Shown here piece by piece: positions 6,273-52,919 of a stretch of DNA of 52,941 bases. The translations under genes and the position numbers were made by a program. This stretch comes from Nevskia sp. (lineage in GTDB: Bacteria; Pseudomonadota; Gammaproteobacteria; Nevskiales; Nevskiaceae). Location: contig JAUXYM010000089.1 in NCBI GenBank assembly GCA_030694365.1, positions 1 through 52,941 on the forward strand, written 5' to 3'. Below the pieces are notes generated by a model. That model was given only the letters and a program-made list of their open reading frames with translations, was not told the origin of the DNA and ran no database searches. Positions within the stretch are counted from its first letter, which is position 1; each line of letters begins with the position of its first letter.

Positions 6273-9200
6273 TCAGGGCGCTGGTTTGAGCGGCTCCGAA
6301 ACCAGCCGGGCCAGCAGCGCCTGCAGCAATGGCGCACGCGCAGCCGGGTCTTCCAATTCCTTGGCGGTGATGTTCAGCCGCTTCTGGCCTTCAAGCTTGT
6401 AGACCTTCGGCTGGCTCTGGATCAGCTTGATCAGCTTGATCGGCTCGATCGCCGGTTGCAGGCCGAAATCGAGCATCGCGGTCTTGGCACCGGCACGGAT
6501 CTTCACGAAGCCGGCCGCTTCGCCGAGCTGGCGCAGGCGGGCGGCATCGCAGAGGCGTTCGGCTTGCGGGGGCAGCAGGCCGAAGCGATCGATCAGTTCG
6601 ACCTTCAGCTCATCAAGCTCGTCTTCGCTCTTGGTCTCGGCGATGCGCTTGTAGAGCACCAGGCGGGTGTGGACGTCGGGCACGTAATCGTCCGGAATCA
6701 GCGCCGACGAACCCAGATCGACCTCGCAAGGCGCCTGACCGAACGGCGCATCGGCAATCTTGCCATGGCGCAGCGCGCGTACCGCGTTGGCGAGCAGCTC
6801 CGCGTACATCGTGAAGCCGACCTCTTCGATCTGGCCGCTCTGGTTTTCGCCGAGCAGTTCGCCGGCGCCACGGATTTCCAGATCCTGGGTCGCCAGCGCG
6901 AAGCCGGAGCCCAGTTCACCGAGTTCCTCGATCGCCTGCAGGCGCTTGTTGGCGTCATCGCTCAAGGAGCGTCGCGACGGCACCAGCAGATAGGCATAGG
7001 CGCGGTGATGGCTGCGGCCGACCCGGCCACGCAACTGATGCAACTGGGCGAGGCCGAGATGATCGGCGCGGTCGATCAGGATGGTGTTCGCGGTCGGCAC
7101 GTCGATGCCGGATTCGATGATCGTCGTGCAGACCAGGATGTTGAAGCGCGCGTGATAGAAATCGAGCATCACCTGCTCGAGTTCGCTAGCCCGCATCTGG
7201 CCGTGCGCGACTCTGACCTTGCCTTCCGGCACCAGGGTCTGGATCTCGGCGGCGAAGCGCTCGATGTCCTTGACCTCGTTGTGCAGGAAATACACCTGGC
7301 CGCCGCGGCGCAGTTCGCGCAGGCAGGCTTCGTAGACGAGCGCGGAATCCCACTCGGAAACGAAGGTGCGGATCGCCAGACGTGACGGCGGTGGCGTCGC
7401 GATGATCGACAGATCGCGCAGCCCGGCCATGCTCATGTTCAGGGTGCGCGGGATCGGCGTTGCAGTCAGCGTCAACAGATGCACTTCGGCGCGCAGGTTC
7501 TTCAGCCGCTCTTTGTGGCGGACGCCGAAACGGTGTTCCTCATCGACGATCACCAGGCCGAGATCGGCGAAGCGCACATCGTCCTGGATCAAACGATGGG
7601 TGCCGATGACGATGTCGACCTGGCCGGTCGCCAGATCATCGAGCAGGGCTTTCTGTTCCTTGGCCGTGCGTAGCCGCGACAGGCCGGCGATGCGGATCGA
7701 TGGCGTCCCGGCCGGCTCGCCGATCGCTTCGCAGTACTGCGCGAAACGATCGCGGAAGTTCTTTTCGTGCTGCTGTACCAGCAGGGTCGTCGGTGCCAGC
7801 ACGCAGACCTGTTTGCCGTTGACCGCCGCCGCAAACGCCGCGCGCAATGCGACCTCGGTCTTGCCGAAGCCGACGTCGCCGCAGACCACGCGGTCCATCG
7901 GCTTAGGTACCGCCATGTCGGCGAGCACGGCGTCGATCGCCTTCTGCTGATCCGGCGTGGTGATGAAGCGGAAGCCCTCGTTAAAGCGGGCATAGGCCTC
8001 GACATCGACCGGCAGCGCCATGCCTTCGCGCGCAGCACGGCGGGCCTGGATCTGCAGCAGTTCGGCGGCGACATCGGCCGCCCGTTCCTTGGCCTTGGCG
8101 CGGGCTTTCGACCAGCGATCTGAACCGAGGCTGTGCAGCGGCGCGGCCTGTTCTTCGGCGCCGGTATAGCGGTGGATCTGGTTGAGGCTGGCGACCGGCA
8201 CATAGAGCTTGTCGGCGTCGGCGTATTCGAGCACCAGGTACTCGGCTTCGATGCCGCCGGCATCGAGCCGCAGCAGGCCGCGGTAGCGACCAACGCCGTG
8301 CTCGACGTGGACCACCGGCGCGCCGAGCTTCAGATCGTTGAGATCGCGAAGAATGGTTTCCGGATCGCGTACCTTGCCGCGCTTGCGCAATGAGACCGGC
8401 GCGCGCGAGCCGAACACCTGCGCCTCGGCAATGATCGCGACCTTGGCAGTCGGCAGATTCAGGCCGTCCTGCAGCGGTCCGAGCAGGATGCCGTAGCGGT
8501 TCGCGTCGCCAGCAAATGTCGCCCAGCGATCGTACTGACGCGGCAGGATCCCGAGCGGCTTCAGCCAGCCGAGCAGCGCTTCGCGGCGGCCGGCGGATTC
8601 GGCGATGAACAGCACGCGGCTGGTCGTCGCCTTGAGGAAGGCCTTGAGTTCATCGGCGGTGCCGGCGATCGGGGCGCAGGCGAAGTCGGCGGCGTCCAGA
8701 AGCCCTCCCCCGCGAGCGGGGGAGGGTTGGGTGGGGGCGGTTGAAGCGAGCGCTTCCGCTTCCGGAAAAACGCCCCCATCCGGGCCTTCCCCCGCCCGCG
8801 GGGGAAGGGGAGAAGCGATTCCGACTTGCGGGTAGTAACCCAGCTCTTCCAGCGCCGTCGCAGGCGTAACGAACAGATCGGCCGGCCGCATCAGCGGCCG
8901 TTCCAGATTTCCCGAATAGCGCTCGAAGCGCTCTTCGATCTGCTTCCATTCGCTGGCAAGTGCGGCGTCCAGATCATCGGTGGCGATGATCAGCGCGTGT
9001 ACCGGCAGGTAGTCGTAGAGGGTCGCGGCGGCAGCCGTATCCGGCGAGAAGAACAGCGGCAGATAGGCTTCGACGCCGCCCGGCATCAGGTTCTTGCTGA
9101 CTTCCGAGTAGATGCGCGACCGCGCCGGATCGCCCGGAAAATACTCGCGGTAGCGACGCCGGAAGGTTTTGATGCCGGCCTTGTCGGTCGGGAATTCGCG

Positions 9201-9866
9201 GGCCGGCAGCAGGCGGATTTCGCCGACCTTTTCGGTCGAGCGCTGGGTGTCCGGATCGAAGACGCGGATCGACTCGACTTCGTCGTCGAACAGGTCGAGG
9301 CGGTAGGCGTCCGAAGCGCCCATCGGGAAGACGTCGATCAAGGCGCCACGCACCGCGAATTCGCCCTGGGTCTGCACCTCGGACACGCTCTGATAACCGG
9401 CGGCGATCAGGCGTTCGCGGAAGGCGTGCGGCGGCAGCTTGTCGCCGGCCTTGAGCAGCAACGCGCGGCCATCCAGCCAGCTGCGCGGCGGCAGTCTTTC
9501 CAGCAGGGTGCCGGCGGTGATGATCAGCACGCCGCGTGTCTGCGACGGCAGGCGATACAGCGCGGCCAGGCGATCCGAGAGGATTTCCTGATGGGGCGAG
9601 AATGGGTCGTACGGCAGCGTCTCGGCGTCCGGGAAGTGCATCACCGGCAAAGCCGCGTTGGCGAAGAAGCGCAATTCCTCTTCGAGCTTGTAGGCGTGCT
9701 GCTCGCCAGCGGTGACCGCGATCACCAGGCCGTCATGACGGGCGGCGGCTTCGGCAATCGCCAGCGCTGCCGAGGCACCGGGCAGGCCAGCCCAGTGCAG
9801 ACGTGCGCCAGCCTCCGCAGGCAACGGCGGGGATAGCAGGATCGGCAGGGACGGCGGGGTACTCAA
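6273..9866 (-). CDS. mfd: Transcription-repair coupling factor Mfd
   Basis: A 1197-residue ATP-dependent translocase that removes RNA polymerase stalled at DNA lesions and recruits UvrA. The N-terminal UvrB-like module has HFPDAETLPYDPFSPH (about residue 80). The CarD-like polymerase-interaction domain has PVVHVEHGVGRYRGL. The RecG-like motor has Walker A GDVGFGKTE (about 662), Walker B DEEH (about 772) and TATPIPRTL. The C-terminal TRCF domain is complete. Residues about 352-389 are an unusual low-complexity stretch (PLPPRAGEG ... PSPARGG) encoded by a palindromic repeat inserted in frame (8703-8812). The gene lies downstream of the PF10118 gene on the same strand. Apart from the insertion its length is normal. 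Confidence 0.97.
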   Translation of the reverse strand: MSTPPSLPILLSPPLPAEAGARLHWAGLPGASAALAIAEAAARHDGLVIAVTAGEQHAYKLEEELRFFANAALPVMHFPDAETLPYDPFSPHQEILSDRLAALYRLPSQTRGVLIITAGTLLERLPPRSWLDGRALLLKAGDKLPPHAFRERLIAAGYQSVSEVQTQGEFAVRGALIDVFPMGASDAYRLDLFDDEVESIRVFDPDTQRSTEKVGEIRLLPAREFPTDKAGIKTFRRRYREYFPGDPARSRIYSEVSKNLMPGGVEAYLPLFFSPDTAAAATLYDYLPVHALIIATDDLDAALASEWKQIEERFERYSGNLERPLMRPADLFVTPATALEELGYYPQVGIASPLPPRAGEGPDGGVFPEAEALASTAPTQPSPARGGGLLDAADFACAPIAGTADELKAFLKATTSRVLFIAESAGRREALLGWLKPLGILPRQYDRWATFAGDANRYGILLGPLQDGLNLPTAKVAIIAEAQVFGSRAPVSLRKRGKVRDPETILRDLNDLKLGAPVVHVEHGVGRYRGLLRLDAGGIEAEYLVLEYADADKLYVPVASLNQIHRYTGAEEQAAPLHSLGSDRWSKARAKAKERAADVAAELLQIQARRAAREGMALPVDVEAYARFNEGFRFITTPDQQKAIDAVLADMAVPKPMDRVVCGDVGFGKTEVALRAAFAAAVNGKQVCVLAPTTLLVQQHEKNFRDRFAQYCEAIGEPAGTPSIRIAGLSRLRTAKEQKALLDDLATGQVDIVIGTHRLIQDDVRFADLGLVIVDEEHRFGVRHKERLKNLRAEVHLLTLTATPIPRTLNMSMAGLRDLSIIATPPPSRLAIRTFVSEWDSALVYEACLRELRRGGQVYFLHNEVKDIERFAAEIQTLVPEGKVRVAHGQMRASELEQVMLDFYHARFNILVCTTIIESGIDVPTANTILIDRADHLGLAQLHQLRGRVGRSHHRAYAYLLVPSRRSLSDDANKRLQAIEELGELGSGFALATQDLEIRGAGELLGENQSGQIEEVGFTMYAELLANAVRALRHGKIADAPFGQAPCEVDLGSSALIPDDYVPDVHTRLVLYKRIAETKSEDELDELKVELIDRFGLLPPQAERLCDAARLRQLGEAAGFVKIRAGAKTAMLDFGLQPAIEPIKLIKLIQSQPKVYKLEGQKRLNITAKELEDPAARAPLLQALLARLVSEPLKPAP
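8703..8812. repeat. Palindromic repeat inserted in frame inside mfd
   Basis: Hairpin ccctcccccg-cgag-cgggggaggg (8703-8726) and hairpin ccttcccccgc/gcgggggaagg (8785-8808) flank a spacer and are themselves joined by a GGGTGGGGGCG/CGCCCCCATCC inverted repeat. The unit adds about 37 codons with no stop. A half copy lies outside genes at 6087-6125. Confidence 0.8.
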
Positions 9867-18281: not shown

Positions 18282-18390
18282 AGGCTCCCATCGGGCAGGG
18301 CCCGGAATGGAGCAGAACTTGGACGAGGATCGTCGGTACGCAGGGCGTCTGCGTGAGCCCCGGCGGGAAGTTTAGCGAAGCTCGGCGGCT

Positions 18391-37265: not shown

Positions 37266-38353
<1,088 letters not shown>

Positions 38354-38354
<1 letters not shown>

Positions 38355-39472
38355 TGTCGGCGGACGAGACGGCGGTGCCCGCGGCGCAGTTGCCGAGCGA
38401 TGCAACGCTGCGCCCGGTACCCACCATAGAAGGTCTGGCACCGGGCACCGTTCGCGACTGGCTGAACTGGGCCGAGTCGGAACTGGCAAGCACGTCCGAC
38501 AGCGCCCGCGCCGATGCCGAAGTGCTGCTCGCCAAGCTGATCGGCAGCGAACGCTCCCAACTGCGGTTGCGCCATGAGGACGCGATCGAAGCGGCGACCG
38601 TGCTGCGCTACGCCTCGACGATCGAGCGCCGCAAGCTCGGCGAGCCGGTGGCCTACATCACGACGCGGCAGGGTTTCTGGACCCTGGAGCTGGCGGTCGA
38701 CACCGCCGTGCTGATTCCGCGGCCGGATACCGAGACGCTGGTCGAATGGGCGCTGTCGATCCTTGATGCGTCATTCCCGCGCAGGCGGGAATCCAGTTCT
38801 GCTTCCGCTGCCTCACCGAAGGTGCTCGATCTCGGGACTGGCAGCGGCGCGATTGCGCTGGCGATCGCCAGCGAGCGCGCCGATGCCCAGGTGATCGCGA
38901 CCGATGTTTCCGAAGCTGCACTCGATGTCGCTCGCGAGAATGCGCGGCTCAATGGAGTCGGCAATGTCGAGTTCATCTGCTCATTTTGGTTACAAGGCCT
39001 GAGCAAAAGCCCTCTCCCCACGGGAGAGCGCTTTGGCCGGCCCGGACTGACACAACGTCAGTCCGGGCTTTGCCAAACGCGGGTGAGGGACTCGGGTCAA
39101 GTTGAGCACTCTGTTGCCAGTGAGTCCCTCACCCCCAGCCCCTCTCCCGGGGGGAGAGGGGAGACCATCGCGCCGTTCGATCTGATCGTCTCGAACCCAC
39201 CTTACATTGCCGAAGGCGATGCCCATCTCGCCGCGCTGCGCTACGAACCACGTCTCGCGCTGACCTCCGGTGCCGTTGGCCTGGACGCGATCCGCGAAAT
39301 CATCCGCGAGGCACCGAAGCACCTGAAGTCGGGCGGCCGGCTGTTGCTCGAACACGGTCACGACCAAGCTGTCGCTGTGCGTGCTTTGCTGAGCGAAGCC
39401 GGATTTACCAAGGTCGAGACGCGCCAGGACTTCGGCGGTAATGAGCGTTGCAGCGGCGGCCGCAAGCCGTGA
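38354..39472 (+). CDS. prmC: Release-factor glutamine methyltransferase PrmC with repeat-derived insertions
   Basis: A 372-residue SAM-dependent enzyme that methylates the GGQ glutamine of release factors. Motifs: LIPRPDTETLVEWAL (about 120), VLDLGTGSGAIALA (157-170) and the catalytic SNPPY (280-284). It is about 90 residues longer than usual. Part is a short N-terminal extension. Two parts are repeat-encoded insertions: residues about 139-152 (FPRRRESSS) and residues about 214-272 (SKSPLPTGER ... SPSPGGRG), the latter just before the NPPY strand. The frame remains open throughout and the catalytic motifs are intact. The start overlaps prfA and the end overlaps moeB (GTGA). Confidence 0.93.
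38769..38798 (+). repeat. Single arm of TCATTCCCGCGCAGGCGGGAATCC repeat inside prmC
   Basis: The same sequence as the left arm at 49764-49793, here coding FPRRRESS in frame between the PDTE region and SAM motif I. Confidence 0.85.
39010..39162. repeat. Composite palindromic repeat inside prmC
   Basis: It contains ctctccc/gggagag, GCCCGGACTGAC/GTCAGTCCGGGC, GTGAGGGACTC/GAGTCCCTCAC and cccctctcccggggggagagggg, nested inverted repeats. It adds about 50 in-frame codons. The same family occurs at 46072-46180 and 46710-46762. Confidence 0.85.
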
Positions 39473-43306: not shown

Positions 43307-46300
43307 ATGAGCCCCACCACCTTCATCACCCGCTGGAAAAACGCCGGCGGCACCGAGCTGGCGAACGCGCAGTTGTTTGTCGTCGAGCTGTGCGAACTGC
43401 TTGGCCTGCCGCGCCCGGAGCCGGCCAGCGACGATCTGCGCGACAACGCCTATGTCTTCGAGCGGCGCATCCGCGAACGGCTGGGCGATGGCAGCGAGGC
43501 CGAGCGGCGAGTGGATTGCTACCGGCGCGCTGCGTTCGTGCTGGAAGCGAAGAAGCTGCATGCCGGCACCGCGACGCGCGGCTTCGACGAAGCGTTGATG
43601 AAGGCGCGCGCGCAGGCCGAAGGCTATGCCCGCGCATTACCGGCCAGCGAGGGTCGGCCGCCGTTTCTGGTGGTGGTCGATGTCGGCCGGGTCATCGAGC
43701 TGTACAGCGAGTTCTCGCGCTCCGGCGCTACTTATGTCCCCTATCCGGACCCGCGCTCGCACCGCATCCGCATCGACGACCTCGCTCGTGAGGACATTCG
43801 CGAGCGCCTGAAAAACGTCTGGCTCGATCCGGATGCGCTCGATCCCGCCAAGGTCAGCGCCCAGGCCACGCGCGCAGTGGCCGCCGATCTCGCCCGCATC
43901 GCCAAGGCGCTGGAAGCGGCCGGCCACGCGCCGGAAGCGGTGGCCGGTTTCCTGACCCGGTGCCTGTTCACTTTCTTTGCCGAGGATGTCGGCCTGTTGC
44001 CGGCCAAGGCCTTCGAAACCCTGCTCGGCGATCTCGCCAAAGCACCCGCGCAGTTCGTGCCGATGCTCGGCGAACTCTGGGAAGCGATGGACGTCGGACG
44101 CTTCTCGGTGGCCATCCGCGCCGACGTACGCCGCTTCAACGGCAAGCTGTTCAAGCGGCCGGCCCAGGGAGAAATGGTCCTGCCGCTGAACCGTGACCAG
44201 ATCGAAGACCTGCACGCCTGCGCGCAGCGGCGTTGGAATGAAGTGGAGCCGGCGATCATCGGCACCCTGCTGGAACGCGCGCTGGACCCGCGCGAGCGCC
44301 ACAAGCTCGGCGCCCACTACACGCCACGCGCCTATGTCGAACGGCTGGTGCTGCCCACGGTCATCGAACCGCTGCGCGCCGACTGGGCGCTGGCCCAGGC
44401 CACGAGCTTGAGTCTGGCCAAGGACGGCAAGGCCGATCAGGCGGTCGCCACCCTGCGTCACTTCCACCACGATCTCTGCCAGGTAAGAGTGCTGGACCCA
44501 GCCTGCGGCTCCGGCAACTTCCTGTACGTGACGCTGGAACACCTGAAGCGTCTGGAAGGCGAAGTGCTGGACCAGCTCGCAGCCCTGACCGGCGGCCAGC
44601 AGAAACTGGAAACCGAAGGCCTGACCGTGGACCCGCACCAGTTGCTCGGCATCGAGGTCAACCCCAGAGCCGCCGCCCTCGCCGAACTGGTGCTGTGGAT
44701 CGGCTATCTCCAGTGGCATTACCGCACCCGAGGCGGCAACGCCGAACCGCCGCTGCCGGTCTTGAAGGACTACGGCAACATCGTCTGCCGTGACGCCGTG
44801 CTGGCCTGGGACAAGGTCGATTTCGTCACCGACGCTCACGGCGTGCCGGTGACGCGCTGGGATGGGCGGACCATGAAGCGCCATCCGGTGACGGGTGAGG
44901 AAGTGCCGGATGACAGGGCGCAGGTGCCGGTGGAGCGCTATAAAGATGCGCGGCAGGCAACGTGGCCGGATGCGGATTTTGTGGTCGGCAACCCGCCGTT
45001 TCTCGGCAAGGGCGAGTCGATGCGCACGGCGCTCGGCGAGGGCTATCTCGACGCGCTGCGTGCTGCGTGGCCGGCGGTGCCGGAGTCAGCCGATTTCGTC
45101 ATGTATTGGTGGCATCACGCTGCCAATCTGACGCGGCAAGGTGCGCTGCGCCGCTTCGGCCTGATCACCACCAACTCGATCAAGCAAACCTTCAACCGCC
45201 GAGTCATCGCCGCCGCGCTTGGCGGCGAGCCGGCGCTGCAGCTCGCGTTCGCGATTCCCGATCACCCCTGGGTTGATGCGGCGGATGGCGCGGCAGTGCG
45301 AATCGCGATGACCGTTGGTTGTACTCCTAGCGGCGCGGACGGGCGGCGGCTGGAAGTGCTCAGCGAAGCGGTCGGCGTCGATGACGAAATTGCCGTGGTG
45401 CTTCGCGAGCGGGCGGGCATCGTCCATGCGGACCTGAGCATTGGCGCGGACGTGACGAAGTGCGGCGCGCTGAAAGCCAATCAGAGCATCACATCAATGG
45501 GTGTGCTGTTGGCTGGAGGTGGGTTCCTAGTGAACGCTGCTGAAGCGAAGGAACTTGCAGAGCAAATCGGCCCGTCCGCGCCCGAAGTCATCAAGCAAAT
45601 TCGTAATGGGCGAGACCTCACAGATGGCCCGCGAGATCTTTACGTCATTGATTTGTACGGACGCACGGAACGAGATGTGCGGGATTCGTACCCAGCGGTC
45701 TATCAGCGACTTGTTGAACGGGTGAAACCGGAACGAGATCTGAACAATCGGCCGAGCTATCGGAATCGATGGTGGCTTTTTGCTGAAGCCCGGCCAGCGC
45801 TTCGGTCAATGCTGAAGGGACTCGACGGGTATCTGGTCACCGTCGAAACGAGCAAGCATCGACTTTTTCAGTTTCTTGAGCCTTGGGTCCTACCCGAGCA
45901 TCGGCTCATTGTTTTTGGGGTTAACGACGCGGGCGTTTTGACAGTTCTATCAAGTCGCATCCATGTGATGTGGGCCAACTCGGCGGGCGGAACATTGGAG
46001 GATCGGCCTGTCTACAACAAATCCCGCTGCTTCGAGCCCTTTCCATTCCCCAACCTCAGCGCCGCACAGAACCCCTCTCCCCCCGGGAGAGGGGCAGGGG
46101 TGAGGGACGCGGCTTCCGAAGCGGCGCATTCCATTGGTGAGAGCAGCCCCTCACCCAAGCCTCTCCCGGGGGGAGAGGGCCTTGGTGCGACCTCATCGGC
46201 TGGTGTCGCGCTCATCGACCGCATCCGCCACCTCGGCGAAGCCATCGATGCGCATCGCAAGCGCCAGCAGGCCGCCCATCCCGGCCTGACCCTGACCGGC

Positions 46301-46981
46301 CTGTACAACGTGCTGGAACAACTGCGGCGCGGCGTGGCGCTGACGGCCAAGGAAAAGGCGATCCACGAGCAGGGGCTGGTGTCGGTGCTGGCCAGCCTGC
46401 ATGACGAACTGGATACGGCGGTGCTCGCTGCCTATGGCTGGAGTGATCTCGCCCCGGCGCTGGTCGGTAAACCGGGCGGCACCTTGCCGTATCCGGAAGC
46501 CGACGAAGCGCAAACCGCTGCCGAAAGCGAGCTCCTGTCCCGGCTGGTGGCGCTCAATGCCGAGCGCGCGGCGGAAGAAGCGCGTGGCCTGGTGCGCTGG
46601 CTGCGGCCGGAATTTCAGGACCCGGCGCGGGCCGCCCCCCAAGCTCAGGTGGTGCGGGTACCCGAACAGGTGGAGGCGGAGCTGGATGGCGGCGAGGAGG
46701 CAAAAGCTTCCCTCACCCCCAGCCGCCGGAGTCATGCTCCGGCCCCAGGGGGGAGAGGGGAGAAAGGCGCGAAGCAGGCATGGCCGGCCGAGTTGCCGGC
46801 GCAGATGCGGGCCTTGACCGAACTGTTCGCGAGCACTCGCGTGCCTTTGTCGATCGACGCGATTGCTGATCGCTACTCGACGCGCGGCAAGTGGAAGGCG
46901 CGGCTGCCGGAGCTGGTCGGCACACTGGAAGCGATCGGTCAGATTCGCTCGGTCGGCAACGGCTGGGTCACGGCGCGCTGA
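43307..46981 (+). CDS. MmeI-like single-chain restriction-modification enzyme (type IIG/IIL)
   Basis: A 1224-residue protein joining nuclease, methyltransferase and target recognition, like MmeI. The N-terminal nuclease motif is Asp70 with E80-A81-K82 (DCYRRAAFVLEAKK). A helical connector follows (GAHYTPRAYVERLVLP, about 340). The adenine methyltransferase has DPACGSGNFLY (about 397) and catalytic NPPF (about 561). The target recognition region (about 700-920) has AT-richer codons than the rest. Residues about 922-960 and 1135-1152 are low-complexity insertions encoded by palindromic repeats (PSPPGRGAG, PLPGGEG, PAPGGRGE). The C terminus is a winged-helix-like tail. ATG 43307 follows vapC directly, so it may share the vapBC transcript. 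It probably methylates one strand of its own site and cuts unmodified DNA; the recognised sequence is unknown. Confidence 0.85.
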   Translation: MSPTTFITRWKNAGGTELANAQLFVVELCELLGLPRPEPASDDLRDNAYVFERRIRERLGDGSEAERRVDCYRRAAFVLEAKKLHAGTATRGFDEALMKARAQAEGYARALPASEGRPPFLVVVDVGRVIELYSEFSRSGATYVPYPDPRSHRIRIDDLAREDIRERLKNVWLDPDALDPAKVSAQATRAVAADLARIAKALEAAGHAPEAVAGFLTRCLFTFFAEDVGLLPAKAFETLLGDLAKAPAQFVPMLGELWEAMDVGRFSVAIRADVRRFNGKLFKRPAQGEMVLPLNRDQIEDLHACAQRRWNEVEPAIIGTLLERALDPRERHKLGAHYTPRAYVERLVLPTVIEPLRADWALAQATSLSLAKDGKADQAVATLRHFHHDLCQVRVLDPACGSGNFLYVTLEHLKRLEGEVLDQLAALTGGQQKLETEGLTVDPHQLLGIEVNPRAAALAELVLWIGYLQWHYRTRGGNAEPPLPVLKDYGNIVCRDAVLAWDKVDFVTDAHGVPVTRWDGRTMKRHPVTGEEVPDDRAQVPVERYKDARQATWPDADFVVGNPPFLGKGESMRTALGEGYLDALRAAWPAVPESADFVMYWWHHAANLTRQGALRRFGLITTNSIKQTFNRRVIAAALGGEPALQLAFAIPDHPWVDAADGAAVRIAMTVGCTPSGADGRRLEVLSEAVGVDDEIAVVLRERAGIVHADLSIGADVTKCGALKANQSITSMGVLLAGGGFLVNAAEAKELAEQIGPSAPEVIKQIRNGRDLTDGPRDLYVIDLYGRTERDVRDSYPAVYQRLVERVKPERDLNNRPSYRNRWWLFAEARPALRSMLKGLDGYLVTVETSKHRLFQFLEPWVLPEHRLIVFGVNDAGVLTVLSSRIHVMWANSAGGTLEDRPVYNKSRCFEPFPFPNLSAAQNPSPPGRGAGVRDAASEAAHSIGESSPSPKPLPGGEGLGATSSAGVALIDRIRHLGEAIDAHRKRQQAAHPGLTLTGLYNVLEQLRRGVALTAKEKAIHEQGLVSVLASLHDELDTAVLAAYGWSDLAPALVGKPGGTLPYPEADEAQTAAESELLSRLVALNAERAAEEARGLVRWLRPEFQDPARAAPQAQVVRVPEQVEAELDGGEEAKASLTPSRRSHAPAPGGRGEKGAKQAWPAELPAQMRALTELFASTRVPLSIDAIADRYSTRGKWKARLPELVGTLEAIGQIRSVGNGWVTAR
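46072..46180. repeat. CCCCTCTCCC palindromic repeat inside restriction gene, copy 1
   Basis: cccctctccc..gggagagggg and cctctcccggggggagagg hairpins around caggggtgaggga and cccctcaccc. The same family as 39010-39162, in frame with the gene. Confidence 0.8.
46710..46762. repeat. CCCTCACCCCCAGC repeat inside restriction gene, copy 2
   Basis: A shorter member containing the dyad GCCGGAGtcatgCTCCGGC and ending ggggggagagggga. In frame. Confidence 0.7.
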
Positions 46982-49763: not shown

Positions 49764-49852
49764 CGTCATTCCCGCGCAGGCGGGAATCCAGTTTTGACCT
49801 CCGCGCAACGCAGGCAACAGAGAACTGGATCCCCGCCTGCGCGGGGATGACG
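49764..49852. repeat. REP-like inverted repeat (CCCGCGCAGGCGGG type)
   Basis: Arms 49764-49793 and 49823-49852 flank 29 bases, at the convergent end between the DUF2069 gene and zapE. Confidence 0.88.
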
Positions 49853-52837: not shown

Positions 52838-52919
52838 CGTCATCCCCGCGCAGGCGGGGATCCAGTTTGGGCCTTGAGCGCTGCATCAGAACTGGATTCC
52901 CGCCTGCGCGGGAATGACG
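52838..52919. repeat. REP-like inverted repeat at right edge
   Basis: Arms 52838-52867 and 52890-52919 pair around 22 bases. The flank after it (ending ggatttgaag) matches that after the degenerate copy at 2377-2452. Confidence 0.85.

Follow-up and report, generated by a model that had tools for sequence, protein, structure and literature searches.

In-frame REPs, the RPEs of Rickettsia, and the triplex motif itself (TM) are already known. RPEs are palindromic repeats of about 100 to 150 bp that lie in frame in unrelated housekeeping genes, according to parts of PMC10969869 and PMC3733652. The latter paper (Di Nocera et al. 2013) also provides the description of the CGTC-1 REP. According to excerpts of its text, RPE-4 and RPE-6 belong to the CGTC class, CGTC REPs are known without a transposase, and both REPs and REP dimers of the GTAG and CGTC types are found within open reading frames, including those of uvrA, DNA polymerase I, and tRNA synthetases. 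Holder et al. 2015 (PMC4666352) described the G/C-rich intrastrand triplex motif (TM_ECO, formerly the PIT motif). In portions of that article, TM is said to be known from over 260 genomes, and its copies in E. coli are always intergenic, with no mobility genes at those sites; the TM_ECO triplex formed in vitro, but a stable form in vivo was unsupported.

We analyzed a stretch of 52,941 nucleotides (the window) from the genome of a Nevskia sp., which is a draft of 124 contigs and is 89% complete (G000; related genomes are numbered in the same way). The prmC gene in this window contains an inverted pair of TMs. We consider it about 90% probable that a mobile-type palindromic repeat inserted in frame in prmC, where its translation yields a disordered loop. 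We see here the same phenomenon as with the RPEs of Rickettsia, though the repeat is a different one. Unlike the RPEs, the repeat belongs to a gammaproteobacterial lineage and is read in varying frames, and we liken the two by description, not by RPE sequence. TM also differs from the GTAG and CGTC REPs in that it has neither tag, and the absence of the CGTC tag sets it apart from the class to which RPE-4 and RPE-6 were assigned (excerpts of PMC3733652). In the open-licence PMC literature, we found no prior report of intragenic TM in such number or of TM beside DUF559 genes, no link of DUF559 to TM or REPs, and no relevant report for the encoded peptide (SPGGRG or longer forms) or for the TM string.

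An in-frame insert in PrmC

The prmC gene (38354 to 39472, plus strand) encodes a release factor N5-glutamine methyltransferase of 372 amino acids and is preceded by a PrfA-like open reading frame (37266 to 38354, named by reading). The protein matches TIGR03534 from NCBIfam with 265.7 bits, as compared to a cutoff of 199.1 bits. E. coli PrmC (2b3t) aligns with residues 34 to 217 and 275 to 370 of the protein. The 57 residues in between (residues 218 to 274; 39005 to 39175, plus strand) stand opposite E. coli residues 174 to 176 in this alignment and replace just those three residues.

The initial annotation had described this segment as a large additional loop, relative to the normal PrmC, made of three nested inverted repeats that keep the reading frame. 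This description holds up: the frame is open through the whole insert and throughout the gene, and all three repeats are where they had been placed. Specifically, CCCTCTCCCCACGGGAGAG (39010 to 39028) pairs with CTCTCCCGGGGGGAGAGGG (39142 to 39160) at 95% of positions, GCCCGGACTGAC (39040 to 39051) pairs with GTCAGTCCGGGC (39057 to 39068) at 12 of 12 positions, and GGGTGAGGGACTC (39081 to 39093) pairs with GAGTCCCTCACCC (39122 to 39134) at 13 of 13 positions. When folded as single-stranded DNA, positions 39005 to 39170 reach -62.7 kcal/mol (z = -9.6), versus -31.3 kcal/mol (standard deviation, 3.3) for dinucleotide shuffles; none of 200 shuffles reached the native value.

We modeled PrmC with AlphaFold2 by using an alignment of 61 sequences; a single-sequence version was poor (mean pLDDT of 39.2) and was set aside. 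In the model, the pLDDT is mostly 96 to 99 per block of the core, 84 to 93 around a loop that we call loop 1 (see below), 56 to 81 in the first 30 residues, and 42 to 58 in residues 221 to 270 of the insert. The top fold match in the PDB is E. coli PrmC (2b3t), with a TM-score on target of 0.94. According to the model, the enzyme core is intact, and the insert forms a disordered loop on it. The insert connects residue 216 with a strand (residues 275 to 280) that ends at the NPPY motif (residues 281 to 284). The loop had also been placed near the active site. This is correct along the sequence, where the insert comes just before the strand leading to NPPY, but probably not in space: by Rossmann topology, the insert is presumably at the end opposite the SAM site, on the face away from the active site.

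The insert is an inverted pair of triplex motifs

The DNA of the insert is an inverted pair of TMs, each of the form CCCTCTCCC-n-GGGAGAGGG-n-GGGTGAGGG, with the third strands facing inward. The second copy (39126 to 39160, minus strand) is inverted relative to the first and has all three strands. The first copy (39010 to 39089, plus strand) is a long form, with a hairpin at 39010 to 39028 and the third strand, GGGTGAGGG, at 39081 to 39089. Between the arm and the third strand is a nested hairpin, GCCCGGACTGAC-ACAAC-GTCAGTCCGGGC (39040 to 39068, plus strand), and because of this hairpin, our strict scan for TM skips the first copy, which has a GGGAGAGCG arm and a third strand that is about 50 nt off. 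Further loci have the long form as well (G014:C86, G011:C2, and G016:C1), and among the four long-form copies, the nested hairpin changes jointly on both sides (for example, from C-G to A-T in G014). In the window, the strict definition of TM fits the second prmC copy as well as 46073 to 46106 and 46148 to 46179.

There are 40 matches to the repeat in the window's genome (46 candidates at first look, 40 scored) and 67 in the related genome G016 (61 candidates, 40 scored). The examined stretches contain 42 full TMs in G000, including those in the window, and 68 in G016. Within these stretches, G000 has 12 inverted pairs and G016 has 23, with spacers of 33 to 44 nt and with the third strands pointing inward. 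In one region of G016 (C1, 706326 to 706793), three TM pairs are in tandem with a period of 183 bp. The three-strand layout, the multiple copies, and the arrangement of some of the copies in inverted pairs are all shared with TM_ECO. A reading of the repeat as a GTAG REP or REPIN was not supported: the element has no GTAG tag, and no TM was found near RAYTs.

History of the insert among relatives

We compared PrmC across 18 genomes from the genus, including the window's own, whose nearest relatives are mostly Nevskia MAGs. G006 does not contain a convincing PrmC, which left 17. The distance from the ENAR motif to the SNPPY motif is 270 nt in the window and 222 nt in G016, whose PrmC is 74% identical to the window's and which carries the TM pair at the same codons, minus the nested hairpin. 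In G014, the distance is 141 nt and a remnant (QTPSPGGRGET) is left; in G010 and G002, it is 132 nt, and the segment (SACDERG) is likely a TM remnant as well. The other 12 of the 17 genomes have no TM there. Of those among the 12 that were compared at the DNA level, four have 114 nt from ENAR to SNPPY, G013 bears an unrelated extension of 16 residues, and the match in G003 contains one stop.

In a tree of PrmC, the five genomes with the insert or its apparent remnants group together as (G016,((G010,G002),(G014,window))), with supports of 0.93 and 0.95, and of 0.46 for G014 with the window. The simplest reading is one gain, followed by shortening, and the insertion probably occurred in the ancestor of this small Nevskia clade. 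The copy in PrmC is probably passive now. In the alignment of the relatives' proteins, the segment is an insertion, and no relative has it as conserved nonrepeat protein. Since the pair is at the same codons in G016, which is an independent genome, since G014 has a remnant, and since the 12 others lack TM, the segment reflects neither an assembly error nor a conserved stretch of protein.

In-frame copies in other genes

The matches in the two genomes were merged into 77 TM sites (33 in G000 and 44 in G016). We judged whether sites were in frame from the open frames, the codon bias to either side, and the translations of chosen sites; this was done partly by eye. Unlike the TMs of E. coli, which are reported to be intergenic and without mobility genes, 22 of these 77 sites were judged to be in frame within genes, and they represent 17 distinct insertions. 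In G000, the hosts are Tgt, XdhC, ValS, HsdS (probable), PurL, FlgJ, PrmC, and an MmeI-like protein; in G016, they are PrmC, CheA, UvrA, LeuS (two copies in one unit), Tgt, ValS, NirB, UreC, PurL, DnaX, PolA, and AceF (two). The hosts were named by using NCBIfam or Pfam, with CheA and HsdS scoring below the NCBIfam cutoffs, except that PrmC from G016 was named by its identity to the window's protein. Among the sites that we read, one TM was out of frame; it lies in the relic of a G016 gene that resembles the MmeI-like gene. If a third of insertions were expected to be in frame, then 22 in frame versus 1 out of frame corresponds to P = 5e-10, with insertions that are common to both genomes being counted twice. 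This count excludes a site at the C-terminal end of CusB and a fragment of 19 nt at 46745. The other sites that we read are intergenic, such as those between FliQ and FliR or between UreB and UreC (names by reading). The encoded peptides use different frames, which implies tolerance of the insertions rather than selection for a peptide.

The initial annotation had likened the element in prmC to the frame-keeping RPEs, and the comparison is apt, as the repeat is multicopy, is missing from 12 of 17 relatives, and is in frame in unrelated genes.

One of the in-frame sites is elsewhere in the window: an inverted TM pair (46073 to 46179, plus strand; identified by the TM scan and by translation) lies within an MmeI-like restriction-modification open reading frame (43307 to 46981, plus strand), which matches MmeI_N, MmeI_hel, MmeI_Mtase, and MmeI_TRD from Pfam. 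The weak TM-like fragment that was left out of the count (46745 to 46763, in SLTPSRRSHAPAPGGRGEK) is downstream in the same open reading frame.

Another type of repeat is in frame in the window's mfd gene, which encodes the transcription-repair coupling factor (6273 to 9866, minus strand; TIGR00580 from NCBIfam, 983.4 bits versus a cutoff of 800). This is a triplex-like pair of the CCTTCCCC/CCCTCCCC type (8703 to 8808, minus strand; identified from the sequence). The palindrome in mfd is of the same type as those that flank the DUF559 gene of the window's genome (see below). A sample of 20 regions with the CCTTCCCC-type repeat contained 21 sites, of which 1 is in frame (in UreC) and 2 are in phase with a stop; the other 18 either have no single continuous frame or are too weak to call. 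At the same place in urease alpha (UreC), G000 has a CCTTCCCC-type repeat and G016 has a TM.

A second palindrome in PrmC

The initial annotation did not mention another palindrome in prmC, at 38769 to 38795 (plus strand; about codons 139 to 147). It is in loop 1 (ASFPRRRESS), which precedes the SAM-binding motif. Its sequence is CGTC-ATTCCCGC-GCAG-GCGGGAAT-CCA, and it has each feature of a CGTC-1 REP: the CGTC tag, an 8-bp stem that starts with AT, a 4-nt loop, and a CCA tail. The stretch from 38755 to 38815 has 71 matches in the window's genome. In G016 and G014, loop 1 holds a GTAG-tagged inverted pair, and most other relatives are short there. Given the CGTC REP in the window, the GTAG pair in G016 and G014, and the TM insert, three types of repeats entered two loops of PrmC within one clade. 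The window contains further copies of CGTC-type REPs at 49764 to 49790 and at 52838 to 52919.

DUF559 nuclease genes bordered by TM

In another departure from E. coli TM, many DUF559 genes in these bacteria are bordered by TM. We considered 63 DUF559 (PF04480) loci, 33 from the order and 30 from the phylum, which are the best-scoring matches and not a random sample; two weak matches without a hairpin were excluded. A full TM lies within 150 bp of DUF559 at 43 of the 63 loci (25 of 33 from the order and 18 of 30 from the phylum), and 19 loci have TM on both sides (11 from the order and 8 from the phylum). At the remaining 20 loci, there is no strict TM this close to DUF559. Farther out at the same loci, we found a full TM at 150 to 300 bp in 8 of 62 and, in the bins that follow, in 2, 4, 2, and 1 of 62; in each of the three bins from 900 to 1,350 bp, there were none in 61. 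As a control, we examined 72 prmC loci, minus two with short flanks, and full TM was within 150 bp of prmC in 0 of 70. A second set of 30 prmC loci (0 of 30) is given no weight, since many of its matches span just part of the gene. The orientation of TM around DUF559 is nearly fixed: the nearest TM on the left is on the plus strand in 28 cases and on the minus strand in 3, and the nearest TM on the right is on the minus strand in 28 cases and on the plus strand in 3. This layout matches that of the gene-free TM pairs.

More broadly, flanking inverted 16-mers (at least 15 of 16 positions) were found at 29 of 63 DUF559 loci versus 0 of 70 prmC loci. Hairpins of any kind were present on both sides of DUF559 at 26 of 33 and 15 of 30 loci, versus 3 of 72 and 0 of 30 for controls and 0 of 12 for RAYTs, although the flanks were misplaced for loci at contig ends. 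None of the 63 DUF559 loci had CGTC-type stems beside it. In E. coli K-12, ycjD (annotated as DUF559) is about 168 bp from TM copy 9 (1351204 to 1351239, in the excerpted table of PMC4666352), the locus spanning 1351204 to 1351760; our E. coli control gave no score for PF04480 in the profile search.

In the window's genome, we found no DUF559 with TM at its flanks. The one strong DUF559 match there (C94) is flanked by a pair of the CCTTCCCC type, not by TM. This palindrome has 70 matches in the genome (with at most 2 mismatches, and a few of them overlapping), versus 1 for the reversed pattern, and 28 of the matches listed are exact.

Some DUF559 domains lie in frame within other enzymes. In LeuS of G016, the TM pair encloses a DUF559 domain, and the reading frame is kept. 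At this site in LeuS, none of six relatives has DUF559: five are empty, and G000 has a CCCTCCCC-type pair. The insert in LeuS appears to replace about 15 nt. DUF559 is also in frame within HrpA (loci L293 and L300, from two genomes), MetH (L302), and asparagine synthase (L321); TM flanks L300, L302, and L321 on either side, and L293 has no strict TM. At another, orthologous place, the unit is present in G002 and G010; in G014, about 440 nt are missing, and a single degenerate TM-like hairpin remains. No target duplication was seen at TM-DUF559-TM units. In view of this, the replacement of about 15 nt in LeuS, and the TM-like hairpin in G014, we treat transposition of the unit as a possibility.

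These proteins have PF04480 and the PD-(D/E)XK family in common with DUF559/Vsr-like nucleases such as YcjD and VsrA. Part of PMC12907096 reports that VsrA from Caulobacter, which is a DUF559 protein, causes an SOS response in cells without a methyltransferase. Unlike in the described DUF559 nucleases, the domain here is between inverted TMs and is sometimes in frame in other enzymes.

How the repeat may spread

We propose that TM pairs are a nonautonomous (MITE-like) form of the TM-DUF559-TM unit and are spread by its Vsr-like nuclease, an idea to which we would give even odds. If so, DUF559 would move TM as follows. The hairpin DNA would be the substrate of the nuclease, which would cut it at or near the hairpin, and as the break was repaired, the TM unit would be copied. 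Insertions into coding loops would persist only when in frame; as for RPEs, those that kept the frame in tolerant loops would have survived, and the others would have been purged. The broader claim seems equally balanced between right and wrong: TM would comprise the ends and the nonautonomous copies of a DUF559 unit, and alongside RAYT there would be a second mobilization system of the REP type, one that relies on a nuclease rather than a Y1 transposase.

A different relationship between TM and DUF559 is possible but somewhat doubtful: DUF559 might act as a homing-type nuclease and invade TM pairs that are already in place, with TM itself spreading by slippage or ectopic conversion. DUF559 does occupy the place of the 33- to 44-nt spacer between inverted TMs, and at the place where the whole unit is found in G002 and G010, a TM-like hairpin remains in G014. 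However, the LeuS site is free of palindromes in five relatives (and the one in G000 is of another type), so the unit must have arrived there whole or in two unseen steps.

We think it unlikely that a RAYT (Y1 transposase) spreads TM pairs, as has been proposed for GTAG REPs, with DUF559 as a passenger. The window's genome does contain one Y1_Tnp gene, and most TM pairs have no adjoining DUF559. But there is no TM core around that RAYT, and across 12 RAYT loci, none has TM within 150 bp (one right flank was misplaced). Furthermore, TM has no GTAG tag, and no hit to Y1_Tnp was obtained in G003 or G004, two draft genomes with TM matches (5 and 1, respectively).

For prmC itself, we favor the translation of an inserted repeat as a loop. 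It is very unlikely that the insert is instead removed, whether as an intron, as an intein, or by ribosome bypass of the hairpins. Strong hairpins are predicted, but the lengths of the segment in the relatives are multiples of three, and removal does not require that the frame be kept, yet 22 copies are in frame and 1 is not. Rfam had no gathering-score match at the insert (the best two, with E values of 0.18 and 0.71, scored far below gathering), and the hits to NCBIfam included no intein models. The matches in the window that reached the gathering score were one tRNA and one chrB-b RNA, both outside the insert; the latter is a cis-regulatory RNA at 18312 to 18362 on the minus strand (RF03086, 44.9 bits).

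Slightly less plausible still is that prmC is a decaying pseudogene that was hit by the repeat. The insert is large and adjoins the catalytic motif, but this gene is the sole match to the PrmC protein in the genome, and the dN/dS of the common PrmC codons is about 0.2 (0.19 to 0.24 for the window versus G016, G014, G010, or G002), by which measure PrmC evolves under purifying selection. Also, the score for TIGR03534 is above the cutoff, the core of PrmC is modeled at high confidence, and three other genes of this genome, those for Tgt, ValS, and PurL, carry copies of the repeat that keep the frame. Least credible of all is an error in assembly or binning that put the repeat into prmC: repeats often cause assembly misjoins, and the genome is a draft in 124 contigs, but the pair is at the same codons in G016, which is in six contigs, G014 has a remnant, and the frame and flanks are intact.

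Implications

The tight and oriented association of TM with one nuclease family makes DUF559 a testable candidate for the mobilizer of TM. If this is true, a nuclease-based unit inserts in frame, carrying DUF559 as a loop within LeuS, HrpA, and MetH. The in-frame copies suggest that certain loops in PrmC, ValS, LeuS, and PolA can accommodate palindromic peptides of arbitrary sequence and even a whole nuclease domain. In PrmC, LeuS, and UreC, the type of repeat in a given loop differs between sister species, so these loops provide natural maps of insertion-tolerant sites.
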